The position numbers and the translations under genes were made by a program. Under the pieces are notes generated by a model. That model saw only the letters and a list, made by a program, of their open reading frames with translations. It made no database searches and was not told the origin of the DNA. Shown here piece after piece: positions 31,115 to 36,011 of a stretch of DNA of 64,000 nucleotides. The stretch's first letter is position 1. Every line of letters starts with the position of its first letter. Source of the DNA: Terriglobia bacterium (GTDB lineage: Bacteria > Acidobacteriota > Terriglobia > Terriglobales > Acidobacteriaceae); assembly GCA_020072815.1 (NCBI GenBank), contig JAIQGE010000006.1, positions 62,001 through 126,000 of the forward strand, written 5' to 3'.

Positions 31115-31495
31115 CTAGGCAGCGGGAATCAGGAGTTCCTGTCCCACTTTGATTTTGTCCGGGTCCTCAAGATCGTTGGCTTTGGCGATGGTCATGAACT
31201 TGCTGGCATCGCCGTAGAACTGCTTGCTGATCTTGGACAGATTATCGCCGGGCTTGACGATGTAGGTTTGACCACCCGCGCGAACTCCAATGTCGTGCTT
31301 CAAATCAGCAAAAGTGGGATCAACGGCTTTGATTGCGTCCCAAATGCGGCCTTTGCTGGCCTCCGAGACAGCCACCACTTTTATGAAAAGTTGGTTTCCA
31401 TCCAAATTGAGATTTAAGAACTCGGCGCCTTCTTTCTTAATGGTGTCGAGGACCGGCTGATACTTCAGCTTCAGTTGCTCAAATAGGTCAGGCAT
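31115..31495 (-). CDS. LysM domain protein similar to Kbp/YgaU
   Basis: A 126-residue protein whose C-terminal half is a LysM motif (TYIVKPGDNLSKISKQFYGD to KIKVGQELLIPAA). The N-terminal half resembles the BON-like domain of the E. coli potassium-binding protein Kbp (LNLDGNQLFIKVVAVSEASK, IWDAIKAVDPTF). No signal peptide is visible, as in Kbp, which is cytoplasmic. Ribosome site GGAGA lies upstream of the ATG. It is the last gene before a 455-base gap that separates it from the JmjC/ATP-grasp operon on the same strand. Confidence 0.82.
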   Translation of the reverse strand: MPDLFEQLKLKYQPVLDTIKKEGAEFLNLNLDGNQLFIKVVAVSEASKGRIWDAIKAVDPTFADLKHDIGVRAGGQTYIVKPGDNLSKISKQFYGDASKFMTIAKANDLEDPDKIKVGQELLIPAA

Positions 31496-31950
31496 GAACG
31501 GTCTCCTTTCGTGTTTTTTTCTGTTTCAAGCATCGTTTCGTTAGGACGCCACCGCGTGCGGCAAGGTTGTCACTGAAAAACGCCGCACTTGAGATGGCTA
31601 CCCTGTTTTCTCCCGGCAACCGGAATGGCCGCGAGCGTGTCTTCGGATGGCATTCCAGAATCGTTGCCGGCGGAATTTTGATCTGCTCGCCTTTTTGGTT
31701 TGGCGCGTGGACGCCAAGGCCCGACATTTGCAACATCGGGGTGAGCAGAGAACCACGGGTGCAACGGCGGCGGCCGTACGGCCGGAGCCGAGAGAAGTAG
31801 AACTAATTGGAAAGTAGAGCAGCGGGGTCGGTCCGGTATGTGAGCGCCGTCACCGCGACCCGTGATTAGGGGACGGACCGGCTGGTAAGCCGTCGTCTTA
31901 GTAAAGACGAGATCCTCGCGTCTCATTCCCGCGCGTAACGATGGGAAGCC
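31496..31950. other. 455-bp intergenic region between LysM gene and JmjC gene
   Basis: No reliable gene. GGTCGGTCCG (31828-31837) and CGGACCGGCT (31875-31884) are near-perfect complements around a region with no other signal and could form a stem at the end of the JmjC operon. GCCGTACGGC is a short perfect palindrome near 31772. No -35/-10 pair was recognised for the LysM gene. Confidence 0.35.
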
Positions 31951-33126
31951 TTATTGGGCCGTGACCACTGCCAGTATTCCTTCACGGACGAGCCTGCGCA
32001 CCAGCACTAGTTTGCCTGCGTCATCCAGTTCACCGGGCAGTTCGCCCACGCGGAAGCGCTGCGCCGTCAGCGCGAAGCGCACGCCGGCGGCGGCGGCAGG
32101 GGGAAAGCTGATTTCGTTACCGTAACACCGCAGCCGAAGAGCGGTCTGGTCTTCCTGCAGCGAGTAGGCAAGGTAGTCGTGCCGGCCAACGAAGCTGTCT
32201 ACGTTAATATCCGCAATGCTTGCGATCTGCCTCATTTGTCCACGCAGCCGGGGGCGGCGCGTATTGATAAATTCGCCGGCAAAAGCGTCGAGCGCCGCGT
32301 CAGCATTGGCGGATTGCGCGAAGAGATCGAGCAGTTTGCGGAAGGTTGCACGCGCGGCCGTGCGGTCGAACCCTGGCTGGGCCATTCCCGGCGGCAGCGA
32401 GCGGCGAAACGCCGGATCTTCCAGGACCGCATCAGCCAGCGATTCCAGCATCAGGTCGGTCCATGTGTAAGAAAGGATGCCGACGGTAATGTGCATCGAA
32501 GTCGAGTCCAGAGACGGAGCGTCATGGACCAGTCCGCGGGGAATGTAAAGCGTGTCGCCGGCATTCAGTTCAAATTCCGTGACCGGAAGGCCCGGCTCTT
32601 CCTGGACCGCCTCGCTTCCCTGGCCTGAAAGAGGCAAAGCGATGGGTGTTCCGTAAAGGCGCCAACGCTTGGAGCCATGCACCTGGAGAATAAAAACGTC
32701 ATGCGTATCGAAGTGGGCCTTGAATCCCCGGGCGCGAGGCGGTGTGAGGTAGATATTGGCCTGAAAGGGTGCACTAAACTCGGCTTCCAGGGCAGCGCAC
32801 AATTCCGCCAGCGGCGCGTGTGAAGTATTGAGATGGTTCAGAACGATGGTCGCGCCACTGGCGTGAAGCTGGTATAGCCGCACGGGATCAATTTCATCGC
32901 CACGCCCGGTGTATTCCGCCGCCTTGATTTCACGCTCTGCGTTGGTCAGGAATATGTCGGGATAGCAGCCGGTGCGGGTAGTAAGGATTTGGTCAATGTC
33001 ATCGAGAGAAAGTAACCGGCGAAAATAGTCCGGGTCGTCACGTGCGACCACCAGCGGCCTGGTTTCGAAATAATCGGCAAAAAACACATCTGCCGTGACC
33101 GCGCCAAGGACCGTCTTAAGCGACAG
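31951..33126 (-). CDS. JmjC/cupin oxygenase, last gene of a putative RiPP operon
   Basis: A Fe(II)/2-oxoglutarate oxygenase of the JmjC/ROXA-YcfD class. FKAHFDTHDVFILQVHGSKR holds the HxD iron ligands (H125 and D127 counted from GTG 33087), and TLYIPRGLVHDA the second His (H188). Relatives hydroxylate Arg, His or other side chains in proteins. The conventional GTG start at 33087 would cut off the family-like beginning LKTVLGAVTADVFFADYF. The frame opens at CTG 33126, 7 bases behind AGGAG, so I annotate that non-AUG start (391 residues). The upstream repeat protein gene ends 14 bases earlier, and the ATP-grasp gene lies beyond it, which suggests a peptide-modifying role. Confidence 0.82.
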   Translation of the reverse strand: MSLKTVLGAVTADVFFADYFETRPLVVARDDPDYFRRLLSLDDIDQILTTRTGCYPDIFLTNAEREIKAAEYTGRGDEIDPVRLYQLHASGATIVLNHLNTSHAPLAELCAALEAEFSAPFQANIYLTPPRARGFKAHFDTHDVFILQVHGSKRWRLYGTPIALPLSGQGSEAVQEEPGLPVTEFELNAGDTLYIPRGLVHDAPSLDSTSMHITVGILSYTWTDLMLESLADAVLEDPAFRRSLPPGMAQPGFDRTAARATFRKLLDLFAQSANADAALDAFAGEFINTRRPRLRGQMRQIASIADINVDSFVGRHDYLAYSLQEDQTALRLRCYGNEISFPPAAAAGVRFALTAQRFRVGELPGELDDAGKLVLVRRLVREGILAVVTAQ

Positions 33127-33140
33127 GGGTCAGCTCCTCC

Positions 33141-33479
33141 CTAGCTCTTGGAGTCGCCGGGTTCGCGCTTGTCATGGTCGGAGCCGCTTTTTGCCTTGTT
33201 GTCGGGCGGTCTGCCGGTGTCGGAGTCATGGGACTTCTTGGGAGGCTTCTCCTTGCTGCCTTTGGCGTCACCGGGCTCGCGCTTGTCATGGTCGGAACCG
33301 CTTTTTCCCTTGTTGTCGGGCGGCCTGCCGGTGTCAGAGTCCTTGAGCGCCAAGGCGCTCGCGGCTTCCGAACCGATCACCAGCGACGCGGCGCCAACCA
33401 CTGCGGCCCCCACGCGAGATATAAAGGAACGCCTGGTAACGGCCCGTTCGGTAATGATGTCATCATCACGGAGAGTCAT
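33141..33479 (-). CDS. Tat-signal protein with two 25-residue repeats; candidate RiPP substrate
   Basis: A 112-residue protein starting at ATG 33479. Residues 15-44 form a twin-arginine signal (TRRSFISRVGAAVVGAASLV, ending ASALA). The exported part is two near-identical repeats, residues 47-71 and 85-109, beginning DSDTGRPPDNK and ending SDHDKREPGD; they differ only at Gly58 versus Ala96. The linker is GSKEKPPKKSH. The repeats are rich in Asp, Lys, Ser and Thr, residues that ATP-grasp ligases join by ester or amide bonds. It lies between the ATP-grasp and JmjC genes with 139 and 14 bases spacing. I know no named family; the repeats may instead be a structural or metal-binding tail. Confidence 0.7.
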   Translation of the reverse strand: MTLRDDDIITERAVTRRSFISRVGAAVVGAASLVIGSEAASALALKDSDTGRPPDNKGKSGSDHDKREPGDAKGSKEKPPKKSHDSDTGRPPDNKAKSGSDHDKREPGDSKS

Positions 33480-33618
33480 GATTAGAACCTTCCCTAGAAC
33501 CTTGCAGAGTAGAGTAGAAGTATAGTCGGGCAAATGGGACCGGCAACACATATATTCCGGGCTGTCGCGTTAACAACCCCGAGGGTCGTTCCCATTTTGG
33601 GATAAGGACGCGCTTATC

Positions 33619-34707
33619 CTAGCGCTCGATTGCAACAATCTGGTGGCTGGGACGCTCCTTCTTGCGCACCTCGTGTTTCGGGATTGCGCGGAGGTAGTCA
33701 TCGAGTGCAGGAAAGCGCGACGCGCGCTCTTCCAGTCCTTGGATTGAATCCGGGGACGAGGTAAGAAAAGCCAGGAACCGCTGCAGCAATTTCGCGCCGG
33801 GGAAGAACTCTTCCAGCCACAGGAACTGTCCTTGCTCGTTGACCTCCAGGAACCACCATGCACCCTGCATGTCCACGGCGAAATCAAAGGAGCCAAAGAC
33901 GATTCCCGACTCCCGGGCAAACGAGTGCAGCGCAGCTTCGACTTCCACCGGCGTGGCGATGCTTTCCACCTGGATTTTTCCTTGGCAGGCGTCCTGCCGC
34001 CAGTCCAGAGACCCCTGCGGGTCGTGCAGGACGAATGAATAGATGTTCGGGCCCATCAGTACGGTCCGCACATCGAACTGCTTGACCACCATTTCCTGAT
34101 AAATGGCCGGCGCGTAGGTCAGCACCTGGTCGGCAGGCAGCGTTTCGGGGCTGAGTTCAAATGCTTCGGTGACCGCCATCGCATCGGAGCCTTCTTTCTT
34201 CCATACATGAGGGAAAAAGGCCTTGCAGATCGTCCGCCCGCCGTGCGGAGCAAGAAAAGACTTCAGCGCGGCGGGTGAATTGGACATCAGAGTCCGCGGA
34301 ACATGGAAGCCGCATTTTCTTGCCAGCAGGAGTTGAACGGACTTGTTGTTGATGAGCCGCGAAGCACTATAGCGATTGATGCACCTTACGGGAAGCCGTT
34401 CCAGAAGATAGGCCAGCGAGTAGTGAAACCAGCGGTATTCTTCTTCCGCGAACGCTTTGTCGGCTTCACTGATCTGAGGATGGAGTGTGGCAGGCCAGGA
34501 CCGGCGCAGCCAGACCACGTCGCCTGGGTCTACAGGTTGACCGCCGAGCACCATCCCGGTCGCTGTGTCCAGGGAGATGGCTGCCTGCTGGCCCTCCGTC
34601 CACCCGAGCCCGCCCCAGCACGCCACCTGGTATCCGGCCTGCTCCAGGCCCCACTTTGCTGAAGCAGCGTGGCTGTCGGTTTCGCGCGCCAAAATGACGA
34701 TTTTCAT
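33619..34707 (-). CDS. ATP-grasp peptide ligase (MvdD/MdnC-like)
   Basis: A 362-residue ATP-grasp enzyme of the kind that builds lactone and lactam bridges in graspetides. Recognisable segments are DVVWLRRSW, NNKSVQLLLARKCGFHVPRT, LMSNSP, APAIYQEMVVKQFDVRTVL (ATP and Mg binding), HDPQGSLDWRQD, and GIVFGSFDFAVDMQGAWWF followed by LEVNEQGQFLWLEE, the usual end of the active site. It is cytoplasmic, without membrane segments. Two small candidate substrates flank it: a 50-residue peptide upstream and the repeat protein downstream. The function in ester/amide bond formation is inferred from the family; the true substrate is not shown. Confidence 0.87.
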   Translation of the reverse strand: MKIVILARETDSHAASAKWGLEQAGYQVACWGGLGWTEGQQAAISLDTATGMVLGGQPVDPGDVVWLRRSWPATLHPQISEADKAFAEEEYRWFHYSLAYLLERLPVRCINRYSASRLINNKSVQLLLARKCGFHVPRTLMSNSPAALKSFLAPHGGRTICKAFFPHVWKKEGSDAMAVTEAFELSPETLPADQVLTYAPAIYQEMVVKQFDVRTVLMGPNIYSFVLHDPQGSLDWRQDACQGKIQVESIATPVEVEAALHSFARESGIVFGSFDFAVDMQGAWWFLEVNEQGQFLWLEEFFPGAKLLQRFLAFLTSSPDSIQGLEERASRFPALDDYLRAIPKHEVRKKERPSHQIVAIER

Positions 34708-34814
34708 AGTCGCATCTTTTAACTTTTCAGAAGCCGGCCGGGCAGAAGCCGGCTAAAGCCGCAGCTGCGTGACCAGAGCGAAAGGGACGCCTTATGCAGG
34801 CGCCCCCGTGTTGG

Positions 34815-34967
34815 TTAGAGCAGGCTGCATTCGCCGTCGTGAAAGTTGGGCGGTTCAAAGGTGCAAGGCAACGATGTGTGGAGATCTCCGGTCAAAACCT
34901 CCAGCTCTTCCGGCGACAACTCGTGGGCGCCGATTCTTCCGAGCACTCTGCCATCATAGATTGACAT
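34815..34967 (-). CDS. Short peptide with leader-like N-terminus; candidate RiPP precursor
   Basis: A 50-residue peptide starting at ATG 34967 behind GAAAGG (ribosome site). It has a helical leader-type segment GRIGAHELSPEELEVLTG, a TG-D boundary as in peptides cleaved after a double-glycine-like site, and a short tail DLHTSLPCTFEPPNFHDGEC with two Cys and several Asp, Glu, Thr and Ser. Similar 'GARELTxEExxxVxGG' leaders precede short cores in acidobacterial RiPP-like peptides. It is the first gene of the operon, 107 bases before the ATP-grasp gene. Confidence 0.62.
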   Translation of the reverse strand: MSIYDGRVLGRIGAHELSPEELEVLTGDLHTSLPCTFEPPNFHDGECSLL

Positions 34968-35435
34968 AAGTTTTCCTTTCTTGATTGTTGGTCTTTGGAT
35001 GTCCGCTAGCGTGCCGGCTGATCCTTCTTGCGACAGCGGCCAAATTCTAATGGACACCCAGGCCAAACAAGGATGAGAAATCTCTAACTGGGATTGTCAG
35101 CGTTCCATTTTGGAACTAGCGCCCAGCAGGCGTGAGCGAAGCCGGGATCCCCGGACCGCGCCGGTTTTGCGCGGGCTGGGGTGGGAAGCCGGGGTCCCCG
35201 GACCGCGCCGTTTTGCGCGGGCTTCGGTGGGAAGCGGGAGCCTGCTGCCGAAATCCTGAGCGAAGCCGAAGGATCGTTCCTACGAAAATCTCCAACGCAC
35301 AAGGTGGGCAATCTAGCTGGGCTTATCGTTACGATTTCCAACTGATATCCTAGGAGCGCTCCTGCTCCACTACTCCGCGCGCCGGTCTTTGGACTGTTTA
35401 GGTCCCAGTTCCGGCAAGGCTTTTCAAAGGAATGC
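34968..35435. other. 468-bp divergent intergenic region with GC-rich tandem repeat
   Basis: It separates the RiPP operon (minus) from efp (plus) and must contain both promoters, though I could not identify them with confidence. The middle (35138-35230) is occupied by a tandem repeat, listed separately. The rest has no coding frame. Confidence 0.4.
35138..35230 (+). repeat. Two tandem copies of a 46/47-bp GC-rich element
   Basis: Copy 1 (35138-35184) and copy 2 (35185-35230) share GAAGCCGGG-(A/G)-TCCCCGGACCGCGCC and TTTTGCGCGGGCT. The second copy has one G less before TTTTGCGCG and TTCG for GGGG near its end. Each unit contains CCGGGxTCCCCGG and GCGCxxxxTTTTGCGC half-palindromes, so it can fold as a stem. 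The type resembles dispersed hairpin elements between genes. Confidence 0.6.
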
Positions 35436-36011
35436 ATGGCCGCACTCATTGATGCCATTGACGTAAAGCGTAAGATGTTTTTTGAGTTGGACGGCGTCCC
35501 CTACCACTGCCTGGACGTGGAGATCAACACTCCTACCGCCCGTGGAGGCCAGACGCTGGTCCGCCTGAAGATGCGCAACCTTCTCACCCGCGCGGTCTTT
35601 GATAAGACGTTCAAGGCCGGCGACAAGTTCAAGGAGCCGGACCTGGAAATGGTCCCCGCATCTTTTCTGTATGCCGATGCAGACGGCTTCTACTTCATGG
35701 ACCAGGAGAGCTTTGAAACTCTCACGCTATCGCAGGAGATGATTGGCGACGCGCAGGATTTTCTTGCCGAAGGACTGGTCATCCAGGTGCACAAGTACAA
35801 CGGCAATCCCATCGGCCTGCAATTGCCGCCGCACGTGGAACTGGTTGTGAAATACACCGAGCCGGGCGTGCGCGGCGACTCCTCCAGCGGCAGCGTGACC
35901 AAACCCGCCACGCTGGAAACCGGCGTGGAAATCCGCGTGCCTCTGTTCATTAAAGAGGGTGAAAAGGTCAAGGTGTCCACGGAGACCAGGGAGTTTGTCG
36001 GGAGAGCGTAA
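35436..36011 (+). CDS. efpL: Elongation factor P family protein, EfpL/YeiP-like
   Basis: A 191-residue, three-domain EF-P family factor that helps ribosomes past proline-rich stretches. The domains run from RKMFFELDGVPYHCLDVEIN through LVIQVHKYNGNPIGLQLPP to KPATLETGVEIRVPLFIKEG. The tip loop reads NTPTARGGQTLVRLKMR, with Arg36 at the position where classical EF-P has a modified Lys in PGKGQ. TPTARG matches the loop I remember for EfpL (SPTARGAAT), and FYFMDQESFETLTLS resembles YeiP more than EF-P. It should therefore act without lysine modification. Whether a second, classical efp exists elsewhere cannot be seen here. Confidence 0.85.
   Translation: MAALIDAIDVKRKMFFELDGVPYHCLDVEINTPTARGGQTLVRLKMRNLLTRAVFDKTFKAGDKFKEPDLEMVPASFLYADADGFYFMDQESFETLTLSQEMIGDAQDFLAEGLVIQVHKYNGNPIGLQLPPHVELVVKYTEPGVRGDSSSGSVTKPATLETGVEIRVPLFIKEGEKVKVSTETREFVGRA

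Follow-up and report, generated by a model that had tools for sequence, protein, structure and literature searches.

A probable graspetide gene pair beside a JmjC oxygenase and its Asp-rich Tat-type partner in an acidobacterial genome

The JmjC oxygenases NO66, MINA53 and YcfD modify ribosomal or other housekeeping proteins. Other hydroxylases of JmjC or cupin-like type, such as biphenomycin BipG/BpmG and PbsQ, act on a ribosomal precursor (PMC12707348, PMC12257519), domains resembling the recognition element (RRE) of ribosomally synthesized and post-translationally modified peptides (RiPPs) occur fused to PF08007, and bacterial PF08007 homologues lie in RiPP-like contexts (PMC12710340). Because of these contexts and of the precursor hydroxylase in PMC12257519 the general idea of JmjC-type RiPP tailoring is already in print. 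Graspetides are a recognised type of crosslinked peptide, in which core Asp or Glu residues are phosphorylated and then attacked by Thr, Ser or Lys (PMC13097080); described ATP-grasp enzymes include microviridin MdnB/MdnC, plesiocin PsnB, chryseoviridin CdnC and PruB. A few group 13 graspetide clusters come from Acidobacteria (PMC13001092), and Acidobacteriota are reported to be RiPP-rich in metagenomes. Here, we describe four consecutive genes for a 50-residue peptide, an ATP-grasp ligase, a repeat protein with a candidate twin-arginine translocation (Tat) signal and a JmjC oxygenase, located in a 64,000-nucleotide stretch of DNA (the window) from a Terriglobia bacterium of the Acidobacteriaceae (assembly GCA_020072815.1, contig JAIQGE010000006.1, positions 62,001 to 126,000). 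We consider it rather probable that they represent two independent two-gene modules lying side by side, a graspetide pair and a JmjC/repeat pair. The chemistry that we infer is that the ATP-grasp ligase most likely crosslinks the 50-residue peptide and that the JmjC oxygenase most likely hydroxylates the exported repeat protein.

The ligase gene (33619..34707, minus strand) codes for 362 amino acids that share sequence and fold with the graspetide enzymes named above. An initial annotation, made from the letters of the window, had called it MvdD/MdnC-like, which agrees with NCBIfam and PDB sequence matches and with the predicted fold, though the scores lie below the MvdC and MvdD cut-offs. NCBIfam matches comprise TIGR04187 (E 1.7e-45), MvdC (1.8e-33) and MvdD (1.3e-31), all under their curated cut-offs; for the microviridin equivalogs 116 bits stand against a cut-off of 425 (MvdC) and 110 against 475 (MvdD), and altogether the enzyme scores far under the MvdC/MvdD/SAV_5884 cut-offs of the known graspetide models. 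Solved graspetide synthetases were found as sequence relatives in the PDB sequence search. With the AlphaFold model (mean predicted local distance difference test, pLDDT, 80.8) the top nine PDB entries are all graspetide synthetases, MdnC 5ig9 being first (Z 26.5, root-mean-square deviation (rmsd) 3.0, 295 aligned positions), and RimK stands behind them (Z 22.0, rmsd 3.1, 276 aligned).

The peptide gene (34815..34967, minus strand) encodes a leader, RVLGRIGAHELSPEELEVLTG, and a core region, DLHTSLPCTFEPPNFHDGECSLL. Fourteen of 300 genomes of the family match the window ATP-grasp at 1e-5, 10 of 396 genomes match it at 1e-20 on the phylum level, and the source genome itself (5.29 Mb, 32 contigs) has one match at E 0.01. 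The close homologues besides the window are 12 genes with 50-60% identity in five sister genomes of the same genus, and one further homologue with 37% identity was found in another genus (14 of 27 places, all with identity of at least 37%, were used in the ATP-grasp alignment A2). These 13 homologues correspond to 12 fetched loci, one of which carries two ATP-grasp genes, and upstream of all 13 lie window-type peptide genes with the same leader, so the assignment of the 50-residue peptide as leader-bearing precursor of a graspetide-type ligase is borne out. By regular expression 60 precursor-like genes were counted in the 12 loci (1-13 per locus, one frame-broken). For the alignment of 62 peptides including that of the window the frame-broken one (L030 3345) was dropped and two peptides missed by the expression were added.

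In window numbering, R7, V8, A14, L17 and E21 of the leader are identical in 62/62 precursors and 61 retain R11; 60 have Arg at position 15, where the window has His, and 52 have Gly at position 27. The resulting consensus, RVLxRxGARxLxxxE, has no conserved Pro, which distinguishes it from the Pro-hydrophobic-hydrophobic leader motif of roughly half of the graspetide precursors (PMC8939145), and no mention of it was met in the searched portions of the graspetide literature, figures and supplements aside. In the variable core the most frequent residues are T31 (49 of 62), C35 (40), T36 (38), D44 (44), G45 (39) and, at position 46, Asp (55; Glu in the window); the cores of L037/L038 are Cys-less and follow a different pattern of Thr/Ser and Asp. 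A short precursor beside the enzyme with conserved leader, variable core and Thr and Asp (T31, T36, D44, D46) among the most frequent core residues is what the window and its relatives share with described graspetides, and the ATP-grasp gene and the 50-residue peptide probably constitute a graspetide module. The ligase would bind the conserved leader, use ATP to activate Asp/Glu side chains of the core and link these through lactone bonds to Thr/Ser side chains of the core, giving a graspetide.

An exporter of the C39-peptidase ABC type, known from graspetide loci, has homologues in 6 of the 12 loci, where they precede the peptide genes (domains scanned and confirmed in L028), some of the remaining loci ending too early to tell. 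It is the sole widely shared real gene noticed there besides ATP-grasp, precursors and reverse-strand shadows. Beside the window locus no such exporter was found in the 12 kb compared, and elsewhere in the source genome there are two weak C39 matches (33.8 and 26.6 bits). Furthermore, the second Gly of the GG motif, the most frequent residue at its position (33/62), is replaced by Asp in the window precursor, which reads TGD. With one precursor, GD for GG and no exporter beside it the window locus looks like a reduced member of this family. The TGD sequence and the absence of a nearby exporter would also fit a leader that is no longer cleaved by a C39 peptidase. At the other extreme, L035 and L036 contain 13 and 11 precursor genes (regular-expression count) before one ATP-grasp gene, and these arrays, from two genomes of the genus, resemble each other without being identical in membership. 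Graspetide loci with several precursors are already known (PMC8939145, PMC13097080); in the relatives of the window up to 13 core variants fall to one enzyme.

The JmjC gene (31951..33126, minus strand, CTG or GTG start) encodes an oxygenase of ribosomal-oxygenase type, and its annotation as a JmjC protein stands, the JmjC_2 family PF08007 being matched with E 3.3e-27 and 95 bits against a cut-off of 22. H138, D140 and H201 are invariant across the 18 sequences of alignment A1 (18 of the 22 JmjC matches of the class; L052, which has an inner stop, L059, L072 and L073 were left out). These residues (HxD...H) we take to be the metal ligands. The predicted model (mean pLDDT 77.6, pTM 0.60) aligns over its full length with NO66 (Z 27.4, rmsd 6.5, 370 aligned) and MINA53 (Z 26.3, rmsd 7.0, 355 aligned). 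Whole-chain fold, HxD...H residues and a C-terminal winged-helix-like part are common to the window JmjC and to NO66, MINA53 and YcfD; the window-type enzyme differs from them by its patchy occurrence (homologues at E 1e-30 in 22 of 399 genomes of the class) and by being mostly paired with a gene for an Asp-rich protein. In its predicted C-terminal part (residues 312-391) strands are followed by helices, an arrangement compatible with an RRE-type as well as with a ribosomal-oxygenase winged helix since the same part aligns with NO66. For four JmjC proteins NCBIfam gave no model beyond PF08007 and sub-cut-off matches, and Pfam covered one of the four.

Directly upstream lies the gene of the probable JmjC substrate (33141..33479, minus strand), a protein of 112 amino acids with two repeats of the form DSDTGRPPDNK..SGSDHDKREPGD. 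The two nearly identical repeats claimed for it were confirmed as 80-nt copies with 91% identity at a spacing of 114 nt. Its Tat signal scores below the cut-off of TIGR01409 (15.4 against 16.7 bits), the twin-arginine motif RRSF is present in the sequence, and the source genome has a TatC gene (205 bits). Ahead of the RR motif the segment LRDDDIITER resembles segments that most of the JmjC partners carry at this place (such as LTDDQIVTER or LTDEDITTVR), and with the LRDDDI leader segment and five D-x-D motifs the protein matches the pattern by which the JmjC/Asp-rich pair was defined. That the Tat protein and the JmjC oxygenase belong together, as first proposed, is supported by the class, where an RR-motif protein with at least two D-x-D adjoins the JmjC gene in 19 of 22 homologues, window included. 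In one clade this partner lies on the same strand and is Lys/Pro-rich (DPDKK); in another (9 loci) it is divergent, Ser/Asp-rich and mostly has Cys after the hydrophobic stretch. This means that the link between the two genes survives rearrangement. The exceptions are L059, which apparently has a frame-broken version of the partner, L072 and L073; the latter two have their JmjC relatives beside open reading frames (ORFs) that from their sequence are presumably asparagine-synthase-like and HPr-kinase-like, neighbours that by eye recall lasso-peptide clusters. Pfam and NCBIfam matches of eight repeat proteins (window included) are all weak and sub-cut-off, Tat-type ones among them, and a plasmid search with one repeat protein returned no match.

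A scan with one genome per species revealed at least 588 JmjC relatives, the best 80 loci of which were kept. A partner was counted if an ORF within 1.2 kb had at least two D-x-D, at least 12% Asp in its second half and a leader or RR motif. This was the case in 48 of these 80 loci, 41 of the 48 having the leader motif in its looser form. Among loci with full flanks 33 of 50 had a partner compared with 2 of 50 control outer flanks, although the control flanks span about twice the test span. At least three D-x-D were found upstream in 44 of 62 loci and farther out in 2 of 62 (for at least two, 50 versus 8). A stricter expression for the leader, later widened, had given 38 of 80 loci and 29 of 50 full flanks versus 4 of 50 control flanks; counted by eye, 63 of the best 80 loci have an Asp-rich partner, and both expression-based tests miss some of these. 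Class and scan loci come partly from the same genomes (e.g., L052/L086 and L055/L074) and their counts are therefore not fully independent.

The partners encoded in Alpha- and Deltaproteobacteria, Myxococcota, Planctomycetes and Gemmatimonadetes combine Tat-like signals with diverse Asp repeats (the Aurantiacibacter partner has the repeat TDSDTGTYADPAGNGR), and those from Chloroflexi, Acidimicrobiia, Niabella and Streptomyces including S. clavuligerus lack a clear Tat signal; L137, L146 and L148 have a Tat signal and lack the leader motif. In the JmjC tree, built from scan loci with matches of at least 1000 bases, six class loci and the window (midpoint root, partner labels by eye), the window is sister to an Acidobacteriota Tat/DPD clade (support 0.865) within the mostly partner-bearing half, deeper supports being weak (down to 0.47). 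On a Streptomyces clavuligerus plasmid (L175 5799-7194) a 48-residue peptide ending in ADNDPSDPPIAIADPDPFDPVI is encoded directly upstream of a JmjC gene annotated as cupin, with a peptidase and an ABC transporter near this pair.

According to the mechanism proposed here, the C-terminal winged-helix-like domain of the JmjC protein probably recognises the partner by binding its N-terminal LxDDxIxTER segment, residues of the D-x-D repeats would be hydroxylated in the cytoplasm with Fe(II) and 2-oxoglutarate, most likely at the Asp beta carbon, and the hydroxylated product would then be exported by the Tat route. Asp is our first choice because D-x-D recurs while Lys, Ser, Arg, His and Pro vary between clades; this preference is partly circular as the partners had been selected by Asp content. 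It is quite conceivable, though not preferred, that the pair is real and the hydroxylated residue is instead Lys, Arg, His, Asn, Pro or Ser within D-x-D or next to it, an alternative that overlaps with our reading and differs in the residue alone. Titles of PDB entries describe the structural relatives as His and Arg hydroxylases, ornithine is the target of a JmjC-related hydroxylase in biphenomycin-type RiPPs (PMC12707348, PMC12257519), and the window repeat contains H, K, R, N and P. On the other hand, Ser is present in the second half of 45 of the 48 partners, Pro in 38, Asn in 25, Arg in 22, Lys in 13 and His in 11, each thus less widespread than Asp, which is found in 48/48 by construction. 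The possibility that the JmjC enzyme modifies a ribosomal or other housekeeping protein and has the repeat gene as unrelated neighbour we regard as very improbable: the nearest solved structures are indeed ribosomal oxygenases, but the frequency of pairing compared with the control flanks, across phyla and despite strand inversion, argues against a mere neighbour, and a housekeeping modifier is not expected to be as patchy as this gene is in the class. Several observations do weigh against the two-module interpretation. By eye, 17 of the best 80 scan loci have no Asp-rich partner (five of them have under 250 bases of contig on the upstream side), a clade made up mostly of cyanobacteria seems to be genuinely devoid of it, and among the 48 test positives at least L153 looks spurious. 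The window repeat is unlike the DPD/Lys-rich repeats of its nearest relatives, and the repeat protein may have a role other than that of a substrate. Finally, the same strand, gaps compatible with one transcript and the lack of a strong promoter or terminator between the modules, together with a Mesorhizobium prunaredense locus (L130) in which a JmjC gene lies 46 bases upstream of a graspetide-type ATP-grasp gene, recall a single pathway.

Such a single four-gene pathway, in which the JmjC enzyme hydroxylates and the ATP-grasp ligase crosslinks one or both small products, appears unlikely to us, though less so than a housekeeping target. Strand, gaps (107, 139 and 14 bases) and the L130 neighbourhood speak for it. 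Described graspetide clusters with an oxygenase and a graspetide synthetase in one locus, as in the window, are group 15 from Corallococcus and group 18 with SmaO/SmaX (PMC13097080). In group 15 the oxygenase is present in all clusters and in group 18 it is frequent (PMC13097080); for the relatives of the window, in contrast, no JmjC gene was found in any of 20 ATP-grasp loci searched and the oxygenase has another partner. L130 (880-4671) contains a small ORF, a sulfotransferase-like gene (by eye; no Pfam match), the JmjC gene (PF08007) and the ATP-grasp gene in succession and is the only recurrence of this neighbourhood among the 80 best scan loci. In the tree its JmjC is separated by the midpoint root from the window enzyme, which groups with relatives having Asp-repeat partners, and is placed far from it beside actinobacterial genes that have partners. 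Since the combination recurs once and on a distant branch, we hold a joint pathway to be possible without favouring it. In total 102 of 104 JmjC loci lack a graspetide-type ATP-grasp gene, the exceptions being the window and L130 (some sites are counted twice, and the class-level loci have 1.5 kb of flank), and four of the five sister genomes with a close ATP-grasp have no JmjC homologue at E 1e-10; the remaining one (G050) carries both modules on separate contigs. Other relatives of the JmjC enzyme lie near RiPP-type genes, which makes a second tailoring role plausible: on a Rhizobium etli plasmid (L173 3230-7155) a 77-residue peptide, a SPASM radical SAM protein, a hypothetical protein and JmjC are encoded in one same-strand run, and LanM and NHLP genes occur in the region around the Pseudanabaena relative. 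Judging by these neighbours, peptide tailoring looks like the general role of the JmjC family.

The initial annotation had presented the four genes as one peptide-modification system that would be questioned by ATP-grasp homologues regularly lacking both small genes, and had suggested looking for a small peptide plus JmjC near them. The outcome is divided: the peptide is retained at 13/13 homologues, the Tat-repeat gene at 0/13, and neither it nor a JmjC gene occurs in the flanks fetched (about 5 kb; for L030, L033 and L038 one side is limited to 1.4-2.8 kb). As one conserved system the four genes are not supported, the whole set being found in the window only, apart from the distant JmjC/ATP-grasp case of L130. 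A graspetide substrate role of the repeat protein was also considered and is not our first choice, no examined ATP-grasp homologue having a repeat gene nearby. The simplest account of how the two modules became neighbours is the arrival of a JmjC/repeat pair behind a reduced graspetide locus.

The claimed arrangement of all four genes on the minus strand with the three gaps given above was reproduced on recomputation. It is unlikely to be a chance arrangement as the ATP-grasp and the JmjC gene each have homologues with conserved neighbours. The 14-base gap presupposes a CTG start of the JmjC gene at 33126, the first ATG/GTG/TTG start being the GTG at 33087; several homologues align residues ahead of this GTG and the longer N-terminus is therefore favoured. 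Within the 139-base gap between the modules (33480..33618, no strand) a single promoter-like match was found (33546-33519, minus strand), which is weak since one was found and 1.0 expected by chance; the scan of 31700-35440 remained at chance level also for terminator-like matches (5 versus 4.0 expected). By eye, the four-gene run is flanked by an elongation factor P-like gene on the opposite strand (35436-36011) and by a gene for a small LysM-like protein on the same strand (31115-31495). In the intergenic region upstream of the run (35130-35250) CCCCGGACCGCGCCG occurs twice, as two similar GC-rich units 47 bases apart; they are suggestive at most, as at least two matches were obtained in 7 of 100 shuffles.

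The JmjC/Asp-rich pair extends over Acidobacteriota, Proteobacteria, Myxococcota, Chloroflexota, Actinomycetota, Bacteroidota, Planctomycetes and Gemmatimonadetes, and one of the species that have it is the well-studied Streptomyces clavuligerus. Among the papers listed in our literature searches none names such a pairing, and the portions seen of the papers on JmjC enzymes in RiPP biosynthesis do not mention Tat-exported D-x-D partners (in the text seen of PMC12710340 the whole words "Tat" and "twin-arginine" have zero occurrences). Tentatively, and with doubts prevailing, the pair could be regarded as a not yet described, phylum-spanning class of RiPPs with a leader of LTDxDI type, in which many Asp of the D-x-D motifs would be hydroxylated and the products would be exported, surface-held or lipidated hydroxyaspartate polymers possibly binding calcium or iron, in the window coupled to a graspetide operon. 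If true, a two-gene pair would make a previously unknown hydroxylated repeat protein or peptide, orphan bacterial JmjC enzymes would obtain concrete candidate substrates and the winged helix of ribosomal oxygenases could be tied to leader recognition. The graspetide half represents a genus-level family in which one enzyme stands behind up to 13 cores and offers a natural test of substrate tolerance.

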